Shown: positions 8,189-21,874, counted from the first letter of the stretch. The stretch: 64,000 nucleotides of DNA from Syntrophobacteraceae bacterium (GCA_031292215.1 JARLHO010000139.1:1-64000), one strand, 5' to 3'. Notes: generated by a model not told the origin, from the sequence alone. Program-made: numbers and translations.

Positions 8189-9538
8189 ATGGAGGACGTA
8201 ACAGCGGAACTCCGAAAGATTCCTCCCCAGCAGTTGGAGGCCGAACAATCGCTGCTGGGGGGAATTATGGTGGATAGTTCCGGCCTGCCGGCGGCCCTTG
8301 AGGTTTTGAAGGGCGATGAATTCTATAAGGAAGCTCACCGGATTATCTTCACCGCAATCCAGGATCTGTTCGAACAAAACGAGCCGATCGATATCCTGAC
8401 CGTCACCAACCTGCTCGATCATCGCAAGCAACTCGAAGGCGTTGGCGGGGCGTCCTATATCGCCTCTTTGACCGACATCATGCCGACGGCCTCAAACGTT
8501 GGCGCCTACGCTAAGATCGTTAGCGAAAAGGCGGTGCTGCGAAAGCTCATACAGTGCGCCAACGAAATCATTGCCGCGGCCTACGGCGGGGGGAAAAGCT
8601 CCGATGAGGTCCTGGATAGCGCCGAATCGGCCATCTTTCGAGTCGCCGAGCGCCGAATCCGAAATTCGTACTTTCCGCTAAAAGAAATCATAAAGAAAAA
8701 CATCGAGGCCATCGAGCGCTACCAGGAATACCGGGAATCGGTTACGGGGGTTACGAGCGGCTACAAGGAGCTCGATAAGCTGACCGCCGGGTTTCAAAAA
8801 TCCGATCTCATCATCATTGCGGCACGGCCGAGCATGGGGAAAACTGCCTTTGCGCTTTGCGTGGCAAGAAACGCAGCGGTGGAAAGCGGGGTTCCGGTTG
8901 GCTTTTTTTCCCTGGAGATGAGCAAAGAGCAGCTTGCGATGCGTCTTCTGTGTTCCGAGGCAAGAGTTGATTCCCACAAAATCCGCTCCGGTTTTCTTAG
9001 CCGGCAGGAATGTGGCAAGCTCCTTCAGGCCGCAGGGCAATATATGGACGTGCCGATCTACATCGACGACACCCCGGGGATTTCTCCTTTGGAGCTCAGG
9101 GCGAAGGCTCGCAGGATGATGGCCGACCAGGGGCTTGGGATGGTCGTAGTAGATTATTTGCAGCTCATGAGGGGCAGGGACTCCGAAAGGCGCGAGCAGG
9201 AGATCTCCGATATATCCCGGTCGCTAAAGGGTCTGGCCAAGGAATTGGACATCCCGGTGATAGCTCTTGCCCAGTTGAATCGAAAGGTCGAGGAGCGCAC
9301 CGACAAAAGGCCGATGCTAAGCGATCTTCGTGAATCGGGCGCCATAGAGCAGGACGCCGACGTTATCGCCTTTATTTACCGCGATGAGGTCTACACCAAG
9401 CAGGCGTGCAAGGAGCCCGGTGTTGCCGAGATTATCATTGGAAAGCAAAGAAACGGGCCGGCGGGTGAGACCGTAAAACTCGCTTACATAAATACCTATA
9501 CGCGCTTTGAAAACCTTGCGCTTGGCCAAGGAGACTAA
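8189..9538 (+). CDS. dnaB: Replicative DNA helicase DnaB
   Basis: Hexameric 5'-3' helicase that unwinds DNA at the replication fork. The 449 residues comprise an N-terminal DnaB domain (PPQQLEAEQSLLGGIM), a linker and a RecA-like C-terminal motor. Walker A is ARPSMGKTAFAL, Walker B is VVVDYLQLMRG, and DLRESGAIEQDADVI is the motif H4/DnaB hallmark. No intein is seen: the Walker A region is continuous. It closes the ribosomal-protein run and is likely translated from the same transcript. Confidence 0.97.
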   Translation: MEDVTAELRKIPPQQLEAEQSLLGGIMVDSSGLPAALEVLKGDEFYKEAHRIIFTAIQDLFEQNEPIDILTVTNLLDHRKQLEGVGGASYIASLTDIMPTASNVGAYAKIVSEKAVLRKLIQCANEIIAAAYGGGKSSDEVLDSAESAIFRVAERRIRNSYFPLKEIIKKNIEAIERYQEYRESVTGVTSGYKELDKLTAGFQKSDLIIIAARPSMGKTAFALCVARNAAVESGVPVGFFSLEMSKEQLAMRLLCSEARVDSHKIRSGFLSRQECGKLLQAAGQYMDVPIYIDDTPGISPLELRAKARRMMADQGLGMVVVDYLQLMRGRDSERREQEISDISRSLKGLAKELDIPVIALAQLNRKVEERTDKRPMLSDLRESGAIEQDADVIAFIYRDEVYTKQACKEPGVAEIIIGKQRNGPAGETVKLAYINTYTRFENLALGQGD

Positions 9539-12452: not shown

Positions 12453-12571
12453 ACCCCATGAAATGATTAGGGATTCAGCCTTTGGGCCGAGTCCCTTTTT
12501 TGGTTCTAAAATGACCCTTCCAAAGTGCCTCTCTTTCGATACGCATGGAATAACGCTTGACATTGTCACAA

Positions 12572-12718
12572 GTGGTCAAGATTGCAAAAAAGAAGAAGCC
12601 CGATCTGACAGATCCCCTGCTCCACCGGGGACATCTTCTCAAGTTCAAAGGCAAGAGCTATCGCCTCAAAGAGGCTTCCATCAGGTTGATGGAAAACAAG
12701 CAGAAATCTTCAGGATGA
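12572..12718 (+). mobile_element. Relic of an IS21-type IstB helper ATPase (C-terminus only)
   Basis: The reading from 12572 to the TGA at 12716-12718 gives 48 residues containing DLTDPLLHRGHLLKFKGK and SYRLKEA. This resembles the extreme C-terminus of IS21-family IstB ATP-binding proteins. No Walker motifs or istA sequence remain, so it is a remnant and not a functional gene. The nearby 31-bp repeat (12765-12795) may derive from the same element's end. The family call is from memory of IstB C-termini and is moderately confident. Confidence 0.55.
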
Positions 12719-12764
12719 AAAAGGTTGTTGGCAGGTTATTTCTCTACTGTCGCCCGGGGGCCCC

Positions 12765-12795
12765 GCCACAAGTGGGGGATTTTCAAGTGGCCCTC
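12765..12795 (+). repeat. 31-bp repeat, left copy (inverted relative to 19346-19376)
   Basis: This 31-base stretch beginning GCCACAAGTGGGGG is the exact reverse complement of 19346-19376. It contains an internal imperfect dyad (CCACAAGTGG and CAAGTGG). Its position after an IstB relic suggests the end of a decayed IS21-like element. Confidence 0.9.
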
Positions 12796-12987
12796 GAGCA
12801 AAAGGATTTTGCGAAGTAACCTTCGTTGCACTTCATTATGATGATATATAAAGGAAATTCTTTGCCAAAAAAATCCTTGATTTTTCTGTACCGTTCGAAA
12901 AAGTACGAATCTCCGCCGCTCTCCCGTATTGCGTGCCAATGAGGCTGTGGGGTGCGGGTAAAATTGTCACAGGGAGGAATGCCGGGA

Positions 12988-13926
12988 ATGAAAAGGAGCG
13001 ATGAGAGGGTGGTGGACCTGGTCCTCGATGAGGGTGGCCCCTTAATAATATGGAGGGAAGAGGATTCTCAGTTAAGACGCAGCGGCCTCTTTGTTACGGC
13101 CCTGATCTGTGACAACCCGGACTGCGAATGTCGCGACGTCAGGTTGCAAGCTGTGCTTATCGACGAACGATATACGAACATAGAGAACGACGGAAAGAGC
13201 TTCAAGTATACATTCGTTCCGAGGGCCGGTGAGTCCGCGGAACCGCCTCCCCTGAGGTCCCTGGGCGCGAGCTTTAACGTGGATTCGGGCCAGGTCGTTT
13301 TCAATTCCGCCGCATCCGCAGAACACCATGATCCTGAGCTGTTGGCCCAACTTAGAGAAGGACTGGGCCCGCATCACCTGGAAAGGCTCAATAAAAGGTG
13401 GCGGATGGTCAAGGGTGTTGACGTGGATGGGTGGCGACGCAGGGACTGGACTTGGTGGAAACCTGGAGGACTGGTCTCGTGGCTCGAAGTCTATCCCAAT
13501 GATTTCAACCTGATCTTTGAAATGGACGGCGCGGTATACTGGGCTGACGATATGTACTGCATTAATCCGGAATGCGATTGCAAAAAAGTCGGGTTGGCTT
13601 ATCACAGGGTGAGCTCGGAAGGAGTGGAATTCGTGGGCGCGATCGACGTCGCCATGCCATCATGGAAATACTCGAGCCTCATGGGCGAAGGAGGTGATGA
13701 AAAATTGCTCAGACGTCTCTGCAGCGCCATGCGGAGGCGCCAGGGGCTCTGCGCGACGCTGAAAGACAGGATGCAAAGGATAAAACCTGTGGGACAGGAA
13801 ATTGTGCGTCTGAGTGGGGCAAAGAATTCAACCAAAAGCGCTGTAGGGCTGCAGACAGGCCGTAACGATCCCTGCCCTTGCGGCTCAGGGAAGAAATTCA
13901 AGAAATGCTGCCTCGGGAGGAGCTGA
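12988..13926 (+). CDS. SEC-C zinc-motif protein
   Basis: A 312-residue protein ending in the SEC-C zinc-binding motif RNDPCPCGSGKKFKKCC, the short domain also found at the SecA C-terminus. Two further cysteine clusters (CDNPDCECRD and CINPECDCKK) sit at similar points of two weakly similar halves, suggesting an internal duplication of a CxxxxCxC unit. The ATG at 12988 has GGAGG 10 bases upstream. The function is unknown; SEC-C proteins often occur in accessory regions. It lies inside the segment bracketed by the 31-bp inverted repeats. Confidence 0.8.
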   Translation: MKRSDERVVDLVLDEGGPLIIWREEDSQLRRSGLFVTALICDNPDCECRDVRLQAVLIDERYTNIENDGKSFKYTFVPRAGESAEPPPLRSLGASFNVDSGQVVFNSAASAEHHDPELLAQLREGLGPHHLERLNKRWRMVKGVDVDGWRRRDWTWWKPGGLVSWLEVYPNDFNLIFEMDGAVYWADDMYCINPECDCKKVGLAYHRVSSEGVEFVGAIDVAMPSWKYSSLMGEGGDEKLLRRLCSAMRRRQGLCATLKDRMQRIKPVGQEIVRLSGAKNSTKSAVGLQTGRNDPCPCGSGKKFKKCCLGRS

Positions 13927-14073
13927 AAAACTATTTTTACATTAAAGCTGAAAATATCAAAGTGGGCCAAATCAAGTTGACGAAACCATTCCCCAACCGT
14001 TCTTGTCTTCTGTGCCAAAACACAGGATTGGACTCTGACTTACAAATGATCCCTGATAGTGCCATTGTTGGGG

Positions 14074-14334
14074 TTACCGTAAGTCGCCAGTGAGTATGAG
14101 GAGAGACCCATCCGATTCCATTAGGCCACCAGGATATTTCCGGCGCGCTTCCTCTTCAATGGCTGCCCTGTTCTCTCTGAATACGGCGAGCTTATCCCTG
14201 GCATCCCCGCCGAAATAGTCATCCAAAGCTTCTTTGCCGATTTCGCACCGCACGCGGGCTTCTCCATCCTGCCCCCAGAACACGACAACTTCGCGATCAA
14301 AAACATATCTCTCTTCCGTCGCCGGAAACCTCAG
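14074..14334 (-). CDS. DUF1488-like small protein, start overlaps Fic stop
   Basis: The last 86 codons of this frame encode RFPATEERYVFDREVVVFWG, then EIGKEALDDYFGGDAR and EEEARRKYPGG, resembling the DUF1488 family of small proteins of unknown function. A longer frame reaches 14607, but its first part is an arginine-rich antisense-like reading inside the Fic gene and is not credible. The family-like N-terminus falls at a CTG (14334) that overlaps the Fic TGA as CTGA, so translation may be coupled from a non-AUG codon. No ATG, GTG or TTG is suitably placed. Confidence 0.6.
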   Translation of the reverse strand: MRFPATEERYVFDREVVVFWGQDGEARVRCEIGKEALDDYFGGDARDKLAVFRENRAAIEEEARRKYPGGLMESDGSLLILTGDLR

Positions 14335-15557
14335 ATGCGCATATTCACCTTTTCGGGAAACAATCCCGGCATCCAGCGAGAGGCGAGCGCCGCCGGGAAG
14401 ACAAGGCGAAGCGGCGAGCGTTGACTCTCCGAGGCGAGCACCCCCCGCCGGATTAGCGCGGAGACAATACGGCGCGCATGGCGCTCGCCCGCACCCACAA
14501 CGCCTGCGGCATCGCCGCGGGGTAGCTCTCCACGGTAGAGCACAGCTTCGAGGATGCTGCCCGACGTGGGCGGCAAAGCATTGACCTTGATTTCTTCTTC
14601 GGCCCAAAGAAGGATGCGTGCCCGTAGGCGATCCGGCTGCATCAGGCTTTCCATGAATTCAACCTGGTCGATGCAGATTTCGAGAAAGAACCCTGTGAAT
14701 GCCGCGAGAGCCTCTTCGCTCAAATTACCGCGCCCATCAAGATCGTTGCGACGGGTGTTGTCACACGTTGCCAGGTGGCTCTTATACCCATCTACTTTGC
14801 GCGCCAAACCGCGCGCCACCGACCAGAGGGCGCCGGTATCGAGCGTCTCCCGCAGCATCGCATGGGACAGCAAGCGTGCAACACGTCCATTGCCGTCAAC
14901 AAACGGGTGAATCCACACGAGTCGATGATGCGCCGCCGCAGCGCCCAGGACCGAGTCCGTCTTGCCGAGGCTGTTGTAGACTTGCTCGAAGCGTTTCAAA
15001 AAGCGCGGCACGGCGCCGGGACTGACGGCGATATGCTGACCAACTCTAACGTCTTTCCTTCGCAGTTCGCCGGCGACAATTCGCACGCGTTCCTTCGTTT
15101 CCGGGTCCTCGACCCACAGCAGATCCTCGGGCAACAACTCGCAGAACCTGCGATGAATCTCCCGGATGCCATCGCTTGTGACCGCGCGCCCATTAAGGTC
15201 GCCATTGTCGATCCATTTTTGAACGGCGACATGCGCTTGTGCTTCGAGCTGTAGATCGCGTTTTTTAGCATCTTTGCTATAATCGTGTTTCAGTGCACGC
15301 TCGATATCGACCGGGTGAGTGTCGTGCCCTTCGATCAGGTTGCTGTAATAGCAGTTCATTGCGCGCACCAAATCGGCAAGCGACCTCAGCAGGCTCTCCG
15401 GCAGGCTGCGCCGCAACCCGGCAGATTTTTGCGCCAGCTCAAAAGCAAGATCTGTCAGGCTGCCGCGAAAACGCGAGTCTGTGCCGATGAGAAAAGGCTC
15501 CGCCAGTGAAATTGGCTCACCCCTATCTTTATGCGCCGCTTCAATGTCCGCTTCCAT
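14331..15557 (-). CDS. Fic-domain protein (probable AMP transferase)
   Basis: A 408-residue Fic protein. The catalytic loop HPFVDGNGR is at residues 217-225, with the flap region upstream (IAVSPGAVP). An inhibitory-helix motif S-x-x-x-E-G is present at residues 72-77 (SNLIEG), which in the family blocks ATP until relieved. The C-terminal third looks like a winged-helix domain (GERHARRIVSALIRRGVLA). Family knowledge says Fic enzymes AMPylate proteins; the target here is unknown. It diverges from the pglZ gene across about 100 bases, so the two could share control. AT-rich promoter-like sequence occupies the gap. Confidence 0.9.
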   Translation of the reverse strand: MEADIEAAHKDRGEPISLAEPFLIGTDSRFRGSLTDLAFELAQKSAGLRRSLPESLLRSLADLVRAMNCYYSNLIEGHDTHPVDIERALKHDYSKDAKKRDLQLEAQAHVAVQKWIDNGDLNGRAVTSDGIREIHRRFCELLPEDLLWVEDPETKERVRIVAGELRRKDVRVGQHIAVSPGAVPRFLKRFEQVYNSLGKTDSVLGAAAAHHRLVWIHPFVDGNGRVARLLSHAMLRETLDTGALWSVARGLARKVDGYKSHLATCDNTRRNDLDGRGNLSEEALAAFTGFFLEICIDQVEFMESLMQPDRLRARILLWAEEEIKVNALPPTSGSILEAVLYRGELPRGDAAGVVGAGERHARRIVSALIRRGVLASESQRSPLRLVFPAALASRWMPGLFPEKVNMRI

Positions 15558-15658
15558 AGCCTCGTTCCATATTTAGGTAAATGTATATATAGCACCGATT
15601 TATATGAGCTTCAAGTCGCATGATGTCCTTGAATAAGTCCGCTTAAAAGTCCGCTTGG

Positions 15659-17650
15659 ATGCACTATTTTCGAAGCCGCAATCAAGGCCGCCGAAAAGGT
15701 ATGCTTAGCCGGCAAAGGACTGTTGAAGTCTTCGGGCGGGTACGCGATGCGATGACAGCACAGGAGCCAAGCGGTAAGGCTCTGGTATTGCTGGGAATGC
15801 CCGGCTATCTTGCGTTGTTGATACCTGAGAACAAACGGGCTGCGATTTCCGCTTTACGCGAATGGGCGGATAGTACGTCTGGGCGGGAAGCGGTCTGCTT
15901 TTTGCGGAGCGATGACATCACGGACTTGCTACTAAAGGATGTTTTTGCAAATCCGCGCTACCGCCAGGGGAAGCAACTGATTGAAATTGATGCCGAGCAG
16001 GTGGTGCTTCAGTTCGAGGCGGGGCATACCGAGGTGATGCTGGTCGGGGAGGATTTGGCGCCCTTCATTCAAGAGGCGTGCGACACATTTCAAAAGTATT
16101 TGAAATATACCGAGGAGCATCCGAACGACAGATCTGACAGGCGCATTGTCATTGCCTCGAAAGGGCGGGAATTGGCGGGGCTCAGCGCCGAGGTGCGGCA
16201 GGTGGTGTGTCTCAGGGATTTCGCTCGCCTATTTTACGACGTAGTAGATGCGGGATTGTCCGAAGAGGCTTTGCGGTGGGTGTGTGAGCGGGGTAAGGAA
16301 GGCGCGGGGAAAACGCTGTCGGAAACACTCAAGACGCTCTTTTTCCCGGAAGGCGGAGTCGAAAAGCGCGTCTTGAGTGTGTTCGACGGGCGCAAAGGAG
16401 TGGAGCGCGAAGCGGTACTGTGGCTGTTTAAACATGCCGCATTCAGGGGAAGTTATCTTGAGTGTATTGCAAGGCAAGAGGGAGTTATCGCTGGCAACTT
16501 CCGCTCCGCATACGTCACGGGGGCGGCGGGTTTCCTGGATAAATCGGAAATGTATGCCAGCGAACGCAGGGATGCTATACGGGAAGCGGACGTCATAATG
16601 TCCGACGCGGACATTCGGCAGTTCATCGCGCGATGCGCGGGCGAATCCACGTCGCGAGTTGCGCCATGGCTGAATTGCGGGACGGGCGCGGAGCGGGCGG
16701 AATTACTGCGGCGCTGCGTTGGGGACGGCATTGTGTCCAATGCCGTAAAAGTCGTGTATCCAGAAGCGGCAACGTATTTAAACGCGGATCTCTTTTTCGA
16801 CGATAAGGCACTGGAAGAGTATTTCAGTGTATACCGCGAACTAAAAATGGTTGGACGCGTGACGCCCGAGTTTTGCGAGAGGGCGCAGTCGGCAGTTCTT
16901 CCGAGTTCGGTGCAGGCGAGGGATGCGATGGTGCAACGGTATGCTTCGGAAAATGAGGGCGCGTTGCTGGTGGTGGACGCGATGGGAGCGGACTGGCTGC
17001 CGATGTTGGTGGCGATGGCGCGCGAACGCAATATAGGCGTGGATTCGATTGGGATCGGCAAGGCGCATTTGCCGACATCGACGGAATTCAACAACATCTA
17101 TTGGCCAGATGCCGCGCGGCGATTGCCAGGCATCAAGCGTTTGGACAATATCGCGCACAAAGGCGTGGAGGCGCATGAGGCGCGAAGCGCGGAGGAAAAT
17201 CTGGCAGCGGCGCTGGATGTGATTGGCGATGAGGTGTTGCCGCGCGTAGCAGAGGGGCTGGCGCGATTCGAACGGGTGCTTGTCACAGCAGACCACGGTA
17301 GTTCGCGGTTAGCGGTGTTGGCGTGGCAATCCGAACCGAAACTGGCGCTGACCCTCGACTGCGAGGTTGGCGCAGAAGTCGCCGATTGGCGCTACCGTGG
17401 GCGGGCGATGCAAGGCGAATGTCCACCGGAACTGGAGGAAACGTTGGACGGCCAGCATTGGGTGGTGCGCGGATATAACCGGCTGCCCAAGAAGGGCGGC
17501 GGACAGGCCTTTGAGCTACACGGCGGGGCGACACTTGAGGAGCGACTGGTGCCGGTTGTGATTTTTTCGAGGACAGGACAGTTTGTGCCTAAGGCGGAGA
17601 CCGATGGTAAACGTGCGCAGATTATTGAGAAAGATGACTTTGATCTGTAG
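15659..17650 (+). CDS. pglZ: PglZ-domain protein, BREX-type phosphatase (type 4-like)
   Basis: A 663-residue PglZ/alkaline-phosphatase-superfamily protein. The C-terminal metal sites are visible as VVDAMGADWL (near residue 440) and VTADHGSSRLAVLA (near residue 543), the hallmarks of PglZ in BREX systems. The N-terminal half is a helical domain without recognised catalytic motifs. The ATG at 15659 lacks a good ribosome site; a Met at 15701 is an alternative. brxL follows 21 bases after the stop. Standard partners pglX, brxC and brxP are absent from the window. In BREX, PglZ is needed for defence, but its substrate is unclear. Confidence 0.85.
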   Translation: MHYFRSRNQGRRKGMLSRQRTVEVFGRVRDAMTAQEPSGKALVLLGMPGYLALLIPENKRAAISALREWADSTSGREAVCFLRSDDITDLLLKDVFANPRYRQGKQLIEIDAEQVVLQFEAGHTEVMLVGEDLAPFIQEACDTFQKYLKYTEEHPNDRSDRRIVIASKGRELAGLSAEVRQVVCLRDFARLFYDVVDAGLSEEALRWVCERGKEGAGKTLSETLKTLFFPEGGVEKRVLSVFDGRKGVEREAVLWLFKHAAFRGSYLECIARQEGVIAGNFRSAYVTGAAGFLDKSEMYASERRDAIREADVIMSDADIRQFIARCAGESTSRVAPWLNCGTGAERAELLRRCVGDGIVSNAVKVVYPEAATYLNADLFFDDKALEEYFSVYRELKMVGRVTPEFCERAQSAVLPSSVQARDAMVQRYASENEGALLVVDAMGADWLPMLVAMARERNIGVDSIGIGKAHLPTSTEFNNIYWPDAARRLPGIKRLDNIAHKGVEAHEARSAEENLAAALDVIGDEVLPRVAEGLARFERVLVTADHGSSRLAVLAWQSEPKLALTLDCEVGAEVADWRYRGRAMQGECPPELEETLDGQHWVVRGYNRLPKKGGGQAFELHGGATLEERLVPVVIFSRTGQFVPKAETDGKRAQIIEKDDFDL

Positions 17651-17671
17651 TTTCAAATAGGGAAATTAACC

Positions 17672-19129
17672 ATGGTCGATACGGTAAAATTGCGGGCGGC
17701 ATTTCCGGACACGACGGTCTTTAAGGATCCGAATATCGTAGCGATCTTCAAGGCGGCGTCGATACCGTCGTTTTTGCGGGATTGGATTCTGAAGCGCAAA
17801 GCGGAGTCTGACGGTAGAATCCACGATGCGGAGGCTTTACGAAAATCCATTTACGAAATCATCCCGCGTCGGGAGAATCTGCTGGAATTGAAGGACGCAG
17901 CTCGTAGTGAGGGGTGCTCCAAGAAGTTTCTGTCCAAGATTGAAATCCAATTCAGTGTTCGGTCCAACGAATACACGTTTGCGATTCCCGAATTGGGGCT
18001 TGGACACACTGAAACGCTGATCGAAGATTATGTCTGGGAGCGAATCAAAGAAGAAGTTGTAAAAACGGCTGGAGGCTGGGGGCTGGTACAACTGGGATAC
18101 CGCAGCCCGGACGGCGGGAATCCGCGAGGATGTTTCACTCTATTAGAGTACAAGAATTTCTGCCCGTACACCATTGATCTGGACGCCTATAGAGAGGCTC
18201 GCAGTCGGTTTAATGCAGAAGAGTGGATCGACGTTGTGCTGGGAGCAATTGATTACAACCCGGCGGGATACGAAGACTGGGTAAAGAAACACACGGTGCT
18301 CGCGCGCCTGCTGCCGTTCATCGAACCGCGCCTGAATCTGATAGAGCTGGCGCCCAAGGGAACTGGCAAGTCGTATATGTTCGGGCGGGTAGGGAAATAC
18401 GGCTGGTTGGTCAGCGGGGGGACGCTGACCCGGGCGAAGATGTTCGGCGATATCAATGGGAAGAGCCCCGGTCTGATAGCGTCGAACGACTTTGTCGCGC
18501 TGGACGAAATCCAGTCGATCAACTTCCACGACTCGAGCGAGAGGCAGGGCGGGCTTAAAGCCTACATGGAAAGTGGGGAGATAACGGTCGGCAAGAACCG
18601 TATCATTGGCGGGGCCGGTGTTATCCTGCTGGGGAACATTCCGCAAACAGAGATGGACGAAACCAAAGATATGTTTCAGAGGCTGCCGAAAGTGTTTCAT
18701 GAGTCGGCATTACTGGACCGGTTCCACGGTTTTATCCGAGGGCGCGACATCCCGCGCATGAGTGAGAACCTGAAAATCAACGGTTGGGCGCTGAACACAG
18801 AGTATTTTTCCGAAATCATGCATCTGCTGCGCCAGTCGGCGGAAACACTGATTTACCGGCATGTCGTTGAAAGGCTGGTGGATTATCCTGCCGGGGCGGA
18901 CACCCGCGACACGGAAGCGGTTTTACGGTTGTGCACGGCCTACCTTAAATTGCTGTTTCCGCATGTCACAGAACCGGACAGCATCGACAGGGGGGAGTTC
19001 AAGCGATATTGTCTGCGTCCCGCCGTGCAGATGCGAACGGTCATCCGGCAGCAGTTGCAGAATATAGACCCGCTTGAATACGGAGGGAAGAACGTAGCCG
19101 CATACACGTTACGCGAGGTAGAACAATGA
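17672..19129 (+). CDS. brxL: BrxL-type AAA+ protein without Lon protease domain
   Basis: A 485-residue BrxL-family protein. Residues 1-200 match a BrxL-like N-terminal region. The AAA+ core has Walker A APKGTGKS at 227-234, Walker B FVALDEI at 274-280, and a further ATPase segment GAGVILLGNIP. It ends soon after the ATPase lid, so the C-terminal Lon-like region of the roughly 680-residue type 1 BrxL is missing, as I recall for shorter type 4 forms. BrxL acts as a DNA-bound ring in BREX defence. Its TGA overlaps the next ATG (ATGA), implying tight coupling. Confidence 0.85.
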   Translation: MVDTVKLRAAFPDTTVFKDPNIVAIFKAASIPSFLRDWILKRKAESDGRIHDAEALRKSIYEIIPRRENLLELKDAARSEGCSKKFLSKIEIQFSVRSNEYTFAIPELGLGHTETLIEDYVWERIKEEVVKTAGGWGLVQLGYRSPDGGNPRGCFTLLEYKNFCPYTIDLDAYREARSRFNAEEWIDVVLGAIDYNPAGYEDWVKKHTVLARLLPFIEPRLNLIELAPKGTGKSYMFGRVGKYGWLVSGGTLTRAKMFGDINGKSPGLIASNDFVALDEIQSINFHDSSERQGGLKAYMESGEITVGKNRIIGGAGVILLGNIPQTEMDETKDMFQRLPKVFHESALLDRFHGFIRGRDIPRMSENLKINGWALNTEYFSEIMHLLRQSAETLIYRHVVERLVDYPAGADTRDTEAVLRLCTAYLKLLFPHVTEPDSIDRGEFKRYCLRPAVQMRTVIRQQLQNIDPLEYGGKNVAAYTLREVEQ

Positions 19130-19335
19130 GCGGAGGAAAACAAATCGATTGTGCCTATTGCGGCAACGAGAAGCTTTCCAAGAATGACATTGGACTTAAC
19201 AAGAAACTCATCCATCCGCAGATTGAACGGATGATGTGTCTGACGTGTATGGCCGAATATTTCGAGACGACGGAAGAGGATATGAAAGAGTTGATCGAAA
19301 GATTCAAGCGGCAAGGCTGTGCGTTATTCTTGTGA
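19126..19335 (+). CDS. 69-residue zinc-ribbon mini-protein coupled to brxL
   Basis: The ATG overlaps the brxL stop as ATGA. The protein has two CxxC pairs (CAYCGN near residue 9 and CLTCMAEYF near residue 38), the spacing of a small treble-clef or zinc-ribbon, followed by a charged amphipathic helix EEDMKELIERFKRQ. I do not recognise a named family. Translational coupling to brxL suggests a stoichiometric partner, perhaps an adaptor or nucleic-acid-binding subunit of the PglZ-BrxL module; this is inference. The 31-bp repeat begins 11 bases after its stop. Confidence 0.75.
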   Translation: MSGGKQIDCAYCGNEKLSKNDIGLNKKLIHPQIERMMCLTCMAEYFETTEEDMKELIERFKRQGCALFL

Positions 19336-19345
19336 GGCAGGCCTT

Positions 19346-19376
19346 GAGGGCCACTTGAAAATCCCCCACTTGTGGC
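19346..19376 (-). repeat. 31-bp repeat, right copy (inverted relative to 12765-12795)
   Basis: Exact reverse complement of 12765-12795, located between the zinc-ribbon gene and the methyltransferase-like gene. It ends the block containing the SEC-C, DUF1488-like, Fic, PglZ, BrxL and zinc-ribbon genes. The match stops abruptly on both sides. Confidence 0.9.
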
Positions 19377-19399
19377 CGGGTCAAAATCGAAAAGGGACT

Positions 19400-21484
19400 A
19401 TGGGCAGGTATTCGAATCCGGAGAAAAGCCGTTTCAACCGGGTGATCGCGAGCATGGCACAGGACGATCTGGCGCGCAGGATTAAGAGTTACCCAGCGGG
19501 AAAGAGGGTGAGAAACTCACTCTATATCTACCTGGAATGCATAGCGCTCTACGACACCGATTTAGCATTGGTTGTAGAGAAACTGCGGGTCCGCTACTCC
19601 ATCGGGTCCCATTTCAATGTTCTGAAAGCTGACGGCGGCAGTCTCAGGATCTCCTTCCTGGAGTACGCCGATTTTTTTACCGCCCCCCACCCTAGGCTCG
19701 TAGAGTCAGTGACGATAGACTTGGCCAGGGACAAGGTCGGCCGGCGTTATTATGCCAACTCTAAAAATCCACCGATTTTGCACCGCAAGGAAACCCTGGT
19801 AGGGCCGAAACATGTATCGTATCCTTCATGGAAAGCAATGACCGTAGAGGAGGAATCTGCAGGGCTTTACGAAAATCCGGAAACGATAGGATTCAAGGCC
19901 AATTGGGATTTTCTGTTATCACAAAAAGGTCTCGCATATAATGGGCACAAGTTGATAAGGACTGGACCGGAAAAGGAACCAGTCCATAACAAACGAGTTC
20001 CAGAGGTTCACCGCCATAAAACCGCCATCAAACGCTACGGCTTCTCGAGGCCGATTCAGACTGTTCTCGAGTACGGTCTGCTGACTCAAGGACAGTCGCT
20101 GCTCGATTACGGCTGCGGGAAGGGCGACGACGTGAAACAGCTCAAGGCCCTCGGCCATAACGCCTATGGCTGGGACCCCGTCCACCCCTCGGACGGTTCC
20201 AAGATGCCGGCGGATATCGTCAACCTGGGCTTTGTTCTGAACGTCATTGAGGATACCGCAGAGCGCGTAGAGGTTCTGCGGGAGGCTTTTGGCCTCACCC
20301 ATCGCTTATTGGTCGTTTCAACCTTGATCGCCACTTCCTCGACCGCGATCATCGGTCGTGCTTACAAAGACGGCATTCTCACAAACCGCAACACATTCCA
20401 GAAGTACTTTCGCCAAGATGAATTGCGACAATACATTGAAGACGTGATCGAGGTTCCACCCGTTGCAGTTGGTCTTGGTATTTTCTATGTGTTCCGTTCC
20501 GTTGAGGAGCAGCAAGCATTCCTTGCCAACCGCAATCGCCATGAAATCGACTGGTTGAAGCTCAGTAAGAAGCTTCACCCCCAGGCCAAACGCCCGCAGC
20601 GCGAACAAAAATTAAAGATCCCGCCGAAACCGAATATCTACGAACTGCATGAGGAACTGCTCGATGCATTTTGGGCCAGGATGCTGGACCTTGGGCGGCT
20701 GCCGCTCCAAAACGAATTCGAGCGATATGAGGAGCTGCTCTCTGCCGTGGGCTCACCGACAAAGGCGAGAGCGCTTTTCACGCGTCGCTTCGACAAGGAC
20801 ACACTCCCAAAGGCCTCAGAGGTGCGACGGAATGACCTCCTAGTCTATATGGCTCTCTCCAGTTTCAAGAAACCGGTGCCCTTCAAACATCTTCCGGAAT
20901 CCCTGAAAGCGGATGTAAAAACCTTCTTGGGTGGCTACAAAAAGGGTCTTGAGCAGAGCCTATCGTTGCTGTTCGCAGCAGGAAAACCAGAAACAATTGC
21001 CAGGCTTTGTGACGAAACTTCGTTTGGTTATCTCACCAGGAAAGCGCTTTTCGTCCACCGGTCACTCATGCCGCTACTCCATCCCATTCTGCGCATCTAT
21101 GTCGGCTGCGCTGAACTACTGGCAGGCGACCTCAGGGAAATAGATATTATTAAACTGCACAAGGCATCCGGTAAGGTCTCCCTGCTGCGCTACGATGATT
21201 TCGAAAACAAGCCTCTTCCTGAACTGGTCGAAAGAATAAAGATAAACCTGAGACAACAGTCTGTAGATGTCTTTGACCACCAATCGAGTGAACGGCAGGA
21301 AATCCTCTATTTCAAGGAGCGCTACGTTACCCATGAACATCCCGATAGAAAGACATGGGAATCATTCGGCATTAAATTGCAGGAACTCGGGTTTGATCTG
21401 AGCGCAGGCTTCGGTCCCACCAAGCAGGAGCTTTTAGCTGTTCTTGATACGAATCTCATTTCAGAGTTCTTCCTGAATCCGTGA
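19400..21484 (+). CDS. DNA phosphorothioation-associated methyltransferase-like protein
   Basis: A 694-residue protein resembling the family annotated as DNA phosphorothioation-associated putative methyltransferases, normally found next to dnd genes. The SAM-binding core includes HKTAIKRYGFSRP, LDYGCGKGDDVKQLKALG (near residue 235), GWDPVHP and DIVNLGFVLNVIED. A large N-terminal and a C-terminal domain of unknown role flank it. The ATG at 19400 follows an AAAAGGG site. No dndA-E genes lie in the window, so it is an orphan here or a component of the adjacent PglZ-BrxL cassette. Its substrate has not been established. Confidence 0.82.
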   Translation: MGRYSNPEKSRFNRVIASMAQDDLARRIKSYPAGKRVRNSLYIYLECIALYDTDLALVVEKLRVRYSIGSHFNVLKADGGSLRISFLEYADFFTAPHPRLVESVTIDLARDKVGRRYYANSKNPPILHRKETLVGPKHVSYPSWKAMTVEEESAGLYENPETIGFKANWDFLLSQKGLAYNGHKLIRTGPEKEPVHNKRVPEVHRHKTAIKRYGFSRPIQTVLEYGLLTQGQSLLDYGCGKGDDVKQLKALGHNAYGWDPVHPSDGSKMPADIVNLGFVLNVIEDTAERVEVLREAFGLTHRLLVVSTLIATSSTAIIGRAYKDGILTNRNTFQKYFRQDELRQYIEDVIEVPPVAVGLGIFYVFRSVEEQQAFLANRNRHEIDWLKLSKKLHPQAKRPQREQKLKIPPKPNIYELHEELLDAFWARMLDLGRLPLQNEFERYEELLSAVGSPTKARALFTRRFDKDTLPKASEVRRNDLLVYMALSSFKKPVPFKHLPESLKADVKTFLGGYKKGLEQSLSLLFAAGKPETIARLCDETSFGYLTRKALFVHRSLMPLLHPILRIYVGCAELLAGDLREIDIIKLHKASGKVSLLRYDDFENKPLPELVERIKINLRQQSVDVFDHQSSERQEILYFKERYVTHEHPDRKTWESFGIKLQELGFDLSAGFGPTKQELLAVLDTNLISEFFLNP

Positions 21485-21550
21485 GTTGAAATTGAGCGAG
21501 ACCTATCGTCTCTATTTTGAGACACATTTTCTATCTTTAAATGCAATGTC

Positions 21551-21802
21551 GTCTATGCGCTGGACGCATCCATCGTTGATTTGACACTATCCCTGTTTCC
21601 CTGGGCAAAATTTCGCAAGGCGAAGGGAGCCATCAAACTCCATGCCAAGCTGGATCTGCGCGGGAATATTCCGGCATTTCTTACCATCACGGACGGGAAG
21701 GTCCATGACGTCAAAGCCGCGCCCATGTTTCCGCCTTTAGGAAAGTCCTTGATCGTTACCCGGGAAAAAACTCCGAAGAGATGCGAGCGGGGTATGCGCT
21801 GA
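21551..21802 (+). mobile_element. IS4-family transposase fragment
   Basis: The reading YALDASIVDLTLSLFPWAKF followed by KGAIKLHAKLDLRGNIP and LTITDGKVHDV is the DDE-core segment of IS4-type transposases. Upstream sequence before 21551 lacks the N-terminal half. After about 21730 the protein no longer resembles the family and ends at a stop. No terminal repeats were seen. It is a dead fragment marking the right edge of the island, next to tRNA-Val. Confidence 0.8.
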
Positions 21803-21874
21803 CCCGAAAAGAACGCGGGGAGGCAGCACCGATTCCGCGCCTCCCCAAAAAGAGCGAAGTACTAGAATTTATCA

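Follow-up and report, generated by a model that had tools for sequence, protein, structure and literature searches.

A stretch of DNA of 64,000 nucleotides from a Syntrophobacteraceae bacterium (GCA_031292215.1 JARLHO010000139.1:1-64000; the whole stretch is called the window here) carries genes for PglZ, BrxL, a zinc-ribbon protein and a DndMT-like protein, and raises the question of whether these form a new minimal defence system. The original prediction described a minimal PglZ-BrxL cassette joined to a phosphorothioation-associated protein, and offered as readings a reduced or different effector module or a remnant that depends on distant Dnd genes. In the present study, we found that the locus is very probably a 5'-truncated, decaying remnant of a BREX type 4 operon and not a new minimal defence system. 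Of the original readings, that of a remnant was the best supported, by the truncation and the missing genes.

Gene content of the locus

The predicted order and common direction of the four genes were borne out (all on the plus strand; Table 1), with matches to NF033445, PDLC02550, PDLC02505 and TIGR04096. PglZ scored 154.5 bits against NF033445 (cutoff 140) and 1111 bits against the PADLOC profile PDLC02550, of which positions 62-700 of 700 were covered. These matches, together with the operons of relatives described below, confirmed the proposed kinship with BREX type 4. The catalytic-region motifs VVDAMGADW, TADHGSSR and HGGATLEER were conserved; an AlphaFold2 model of the intact PglZ had a mean pLDDT of 45. 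BrxL contained Pfam BrxL_N and BrxL_ATPase with both Walker A and Walker B, matched PDLC02505 at 744 bits (positions 6-480 of 482) and was about 90% identical to its relatives. It had no C-terminal extension, and the Lon part was absent as predicted, but this is the usual type-4 form and not a reduction, since type-4 BrxL normally lacks the C-terminal (Lon/protease) domain (PMC12839542). A small zinc-finger protein is likewise a known BREX type 4 neighbour (PMC12839542). PglZ, a BrxL without C-terminal protease and the small protein are features that the window shares with this type. The 69-residue protein also gave a weak match to the restriction-alleviation protein Lar (Pfam E = 0.02, below cutoff).

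The DndMT-like protein matched TIGR04096 at 589 bits (cutoff 150). A GTG start at 19319 was rejected as mechanical; its first 27 codons run through the 38-bp repeat at 19343-19380, and the apparent overlap with the zinc-ribbon gene was an artefact of this start. The true start is probably the ATG at 19400, which agrees with the homologues; the one in genome G017 starts at about residue 19 of the version beginning there.

Table 1. Features of the locus and its surroundings (window coordinates)
Feature	Position	Strand	Remark
istB (IS21 helper ATPase), C-terminal remnant	12572-12715	+	
IS21-type terminal repeat, left copy	12761-12798	+	just 3' of the istB C-terminal fragment
Protein with C-terminal SEC-C motif	12952-13926		within the segment bounded by IS21-type ends
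Fic-family gene	14331-15557		intact HPFVDGNGR motif; divergent from the PglZ remnant
PglZ ORF	15659-17650	+	type 4 by NF033445 and PADLOC PDLC02550
ORF leader, 22 residues	15659-15724	+	no counterpart in relatives; junction with the lost operon part at ~15720
5'-truncated type-4 PglZ	15725-17650	+	codons 62-709 of the intact protein
BrxL, type-4 form	17672-19129	+	485 aa, intact
Zinc-ribbon-like protein	19126-19335	+	69 aa, two CxxC
IS21-type terminal repeat, right copy	19343-19380	-	38 bp; inverted copy of 12761-12798
TIGR04096 (dnd_rel_methyl, DndMT-like)	19400-21484	+	694 aa, intact
IS4-family transposase fragment	21581-21802		right island edge; adjoins tRNA-Val

Intact operons in relatives and the 5' truncation

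Previous work has defined BREX type 4 as BrxP-BrxC-PglZ-BrxL (PMC12839542). Among 395 genomes of the phylum, PDLC02550 identified one other carrier (G211), and GTDB contigs scanned with a three-homologue alignment yielded 11 further loci. IMG/VR contributed one locus (L033), and a class-wide search added L075 and L074; matches in G470/L073 were the same as L035 and were counted once, giving 15 related loci in total. A single-sequence PglZ query returned no match in genome contigs or plasmids, and single BrxL or zinc-ribbon protein queries against viral contigs returned nothing.

The intact order was a RAMA-like gene, BrxP, BrxC, PglZ and BrxL, followed in most loci by the 69-residue protein. 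BrxC lay directly 5' of a full-length PglZ in 12 of the 15 loci assessable upstream of PglZ, and BrxP with the RAMA-like gene was also seen in 11 of these 12; in the twelfth (L037), the contig end cuts inside BrxC. In G211, PADLOC matched BrxP (960 bits), BrxC (2646), BrxL (748) and also PglZ. The BrxP of relatives comprised a PAPS reductase, a ferredoxin motif and a C-terminal part. The zinc-ribbon gene stood 3' of BrxL in most BREX-4 relatives of the subfamily, with a cysteine desulfurase gene after it in three. Gene order and homology identify PglZ-BrxL-zinc ribbon as the 3' end of a BREX type 4 operon, and the supposed minimal cassette is the truncated end of a longer one.

Several features of these operons were noted in passing. 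The RAMA-like first gene (L019:7040-8155 and L033:1332-3467) encoded 371 aa in G211 (PADLOC PDC-S57, 66 bits); in L033, Pfam RAMA fell below cutoff and the C-terminal domain occurred three times in tandem. A RAMA-like reader of modified DNA at the operon head would be of interest. L033 (IMGVR_UViG_3300037044_000263) is a viral-classed contig with a BREX type 4 operon comprising a RAMA-like gene, BrxP, BrxC and PglZ. In L075 (5397-9565), the operon was complete except that BrxC was divided near 8243 into two overlapping frames, possibly by a frameshift.

Nucleotide homology between the window and its relatives started at 15720 or 15725 in most cases (range 15712-15752). It ended a few bases from the zinc-ribbon stop, at 19347 at most among relatives keeping the zinc-ribbon gene; in L035 and L074, which are the closest, it ended at 19341. 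The PglZ N-terminus of about 61 residues (MxLxEYCEYIRNPLAEAKARV...LPMPDEVF) was found in all relatives with the region, and the window lacks it; its type-4 PglZ is not full-length. No promoter-like site was found 5' of PglZ. As PglZ starts at most ~20 bases from the BrxC stop in intact operons, the truncation would remove upstream transcription as well.

The window genome is a draft of 177 contigs, 97% complete. Whole-genome protein searches of it were negative for BrxP and for BrxC, each with G211 as positive control, and gave no second type-4 PglZ piece, indicating that BrxP and BrxC are likely absent from the genome. The model of DUF4007, the domain that accompanies the PAPS reductase in BrxP, had no match in the window genome; the control genomes likewise gave none. 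DndC was not found, and the PAPS-reductase family (PAPS_reduct), detected in three other genomes and in 14 of 14 controls, had no detected member; the sulfurtransferases, including any DndC- or SspD-type PAPS reductase as used by Dnd and Ssp systems, are likely absent. The predicted lack of BrxC, BrxP and DndC extended to the searches of the whole genome. The absence of BrxHII was no sign of reduction, as it belongs to type 3 and not type 4 (PMC12839542). Dependence on distant Dnd genes was not supported, since no PAPS reductase, DndC, BrxP or BrxC was detected. Unlike intact BREX type 4, the window lacks BrxP, BrxC and the PglZ N-terminus, and its genome has no detected phosphorothioation enzyme.

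Comparable truncations were observed in two other loci. L039 (7610-13920) lacks BrxP, BrxC and about 17 PglZ codons; a HipA-like gene precedes it, and the cysteine desulfurase gene is retained on its 3' side. At the same junction, the sister locus L037 (100% bootstrap) still has BrxC, so the L039 truncation is recent and independent. In G506, locus L074 (6906-9328) keeps only PglZ codons 396-709 and complete BrxL and zinc-ribbon frames; this remnant is more decayed than that of the window. The window grouped with G506 in the tree (79/84 support), and the two have different breakpoints and flanks without similarity. The BrxL and zinc-ribbon frames were open in all three truncated loci, and in the window the PglZ frame was open too. 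The mean dN/dS of the window BrxL was 0.068 against intact relatives, compared with 0.035-0.067 among the intact ones, which shows strong purifying selection. Polarised changes gave no significant relaxation (Fisher p = 0.06 for BrxL and 0.20 for PglZ); in a second dN/dS run, PglZ sites were saturated. The selection and frame data fit a recent truncation.

Probable insertion sequence ends and the TIGR04096 gene

The 38-bp inverted repeats are 95% complementary and bracket the BREX-4 segment. Their core occurs in exactly two copies in the genome and in none of 19 relatives, and a similarity search against plasmids gave chance-level matches only. Over about 30 residues, the istB fragment was 58-69% identical to annotated istB of IS21, and it matched Pfam IstB at E = 0.006. 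Since the left copy follows this fragment, the repeats probably represent IS21-family ends. The right repeat begins where BREX-4 homology stops, and the DndMT-like gene starts 19 bases behind it. The PglZ cassette is not joined to this gene as predicted: an IS21-type end stands between, and no relative has the arrangement. The junction of zinc ribbon and DndMT is best explained by IS activity, judging from these positions. To account for the orientation of DndMT, an inversion between the IS ends was considered and rejected; it would bring the SEC-C gene, instead of the zinc ribbon, next to DndMT. The whole segment belongs to a variable island (~12460-21870) between tRNA-Leu and tRNA-Val. Nine genomes of the same genus share the trpS-rluB-TPR block, which tRNA-Val follows in eight, and in none of the nine were island genes found beside this block.

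The closest TIGR04096 copy found, 57% identical to that of the window, was in G017, where it is the last gene of an operon with SspD-, SspH-, SspB- and SspC-like genes; this upheld the predicted association with phosphorothioation. The Ssp-type operon of this same-family genome (L026:233-19956) runs in the order PAPS reductase, a 1542-aa protein with kinase-like repeats, a 541-aa protein, an SspH/DndH-like HerA ATPase, SspB-like, SspC-like and TIGR04096. In contrast, the window contains no Ssp genes, and its DndMT-like gene lies behind the IS21-type end. Two complete BREX-4 operons, L036 and L040, have a convergent TIGR04096 gene within a few hundred bases on the 3' side of the zinc-ribbon gene (656 bits at 12900-14936 and 318 bits at 13074-14162, respectively), whose proteins are 36-41% identical to that of the window; the L040 copy looks broken. 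From these matches, TIGR04096 is phosphorothioation-associated, and its adjacency to BREX-4 occurs. The convergent gene may be a recurrent accessory of this BREX-4 subfamily, of which we found no description. On the same strand beside the zinc ribbon, TIGR04096 was found in none of the other 15 loci; the four-gene same-strand order is not conserved, while PglZ-BrxL-zinc ribbon is.

The original prediction also invoked Pbe systems as linking PglZ/BrxL to phosphorothioation. This comparison is mistaken: PbeA-D are an HKD-SF2 helicase, a small protein, a CxC ABC ATPase and DndE (PMC10853773), and PbeABCD includes neither PglZ nor BrxL (PMC10853773, PMC6459918). The window shares only the general phosphorothioation theme with it, and the HKD-SF2 helicase, CxC ABC ATPase and DndE were absent among the four genes and the scanned neighbours. 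With type I BREX, the window shares homologous PglZ and BrxL families, but its cassette lacks BrxA, BrxB and PglX, and its BrxL lacks the C-terminal Lon-like domain.

Proposed origin and function of the locus

Intact BREX-4 places a phosphorothioate mark on host DNA and is antiviral without a restriction endonuclease (PMC11931770, PMC12839542). Judging by the protein families, BrxP and BrxC would make up a marking half, with PglZ and BrxL acting against unmarked DNA. We propose that a deletion or rearrangement took the RAMA-like gene, BrxP (the phosphorothioation PAPS reductase), BrxC and the first 61 PglZ codons. IS21-type elements would once have flanked the remnant, and the TIGR04096 gene would have become its neighbour by chance when the right IS body was lost. 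No self-marking complex could form in the absence of BrxP and BrxC, and with the marking half gone the cassette could not run the BREX-4 cycle. Because BrxP and BrxC are missing, the native start and the N-terminal segment of PglZ are lost and no promoter-like site was detected, the remnant most likely provides no BREX defence and is decaying, with BrxL and the zinc-ribbon gene still open. The intact frames and the strong purifying selection on BrxL run counter to decay, and relaxation of BrxL or PglZ was not demonstrated.

We considered whether the 3' half of the operon persists as an effector, which appears unlikely. Three loci truncated at the 5' side (at PglZ codon 62 in the window, ~17 in L039 and 396 in G506/L074) keep full-length BrxL and zinc-ribbon frames, BrxL stays constrained, and the sister position of the window and G506 would allow a shared older truncation; PglZ of type I systems has nuclease activity by itself (PMC12205998). 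However, G506 has lost over half of PglZ, open frames are to be expected in L039 given its recent truncation, flanks and breakpoints differ among all three loci, and PglZ has no detected promoter. Type I systems lose defence as well as methylation when pglZ is deleted (PMC12205998); an incomplete set would therefore not be expected to function. Slightly less probable still is the broader idea that loss of the modification half is a recurrent event in BREX-4 operons, and that selection keeps the remaining PglZ-BrxL-zinc-ribbon or BrxL-zinc-ribbon units as independent anti-phage or regulatory modules that work without modification.

That all four genes form one functional unit, with the TIGR04096 protein supplying a replacement DNA mark, is highly improbable. 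Its position directly after the zinc-ribbon gene in the complete operons L036 and L040 and at the end of the Ssp-type operon in G017 speak for such a unit; yet the L036 and L040 genes are convergent and more distant than the Ssp-linked copy, the IS21-type end intervenes, and none of the other 15 loci shows the same-strand order. In addition, G020 carries its TIGR04096 gene and its only PAPS reductase on different contigs, and we know of no DNA-modifying activity of TIGR04096 proteins. An assembly artefact, in which a BREX-4 operon end was joined to unrelated DNA at ~15720 and the rest is missing from the bin, has an equally slight chance of being correct. The fragmented draft leaves a small residual possibility of genes missing from the assembly or of a chimeric junction, but the genome-wide searches recovered neither BrxP, BrxC nor a second PglZ piece, and the two comparable truncations come from independent assemblies.

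Collectively, the results on this remnant indicated that a truncated BREX type 4 operon can mimic a minimal PglZ-BrxL system, which is relevant to counts of defence systems based on PglZ or BrxL matches. The comparison also yields the 3' layout of the subfamily, namely BrxL, the zinc-ribbon gene and, in some cases, a gene for a cysteine desulfurase or a TIGR04096 protein. Should the recurrent 5' truncations prove to be selected, the role of BrxL and PglZ without self-marking would become the question.
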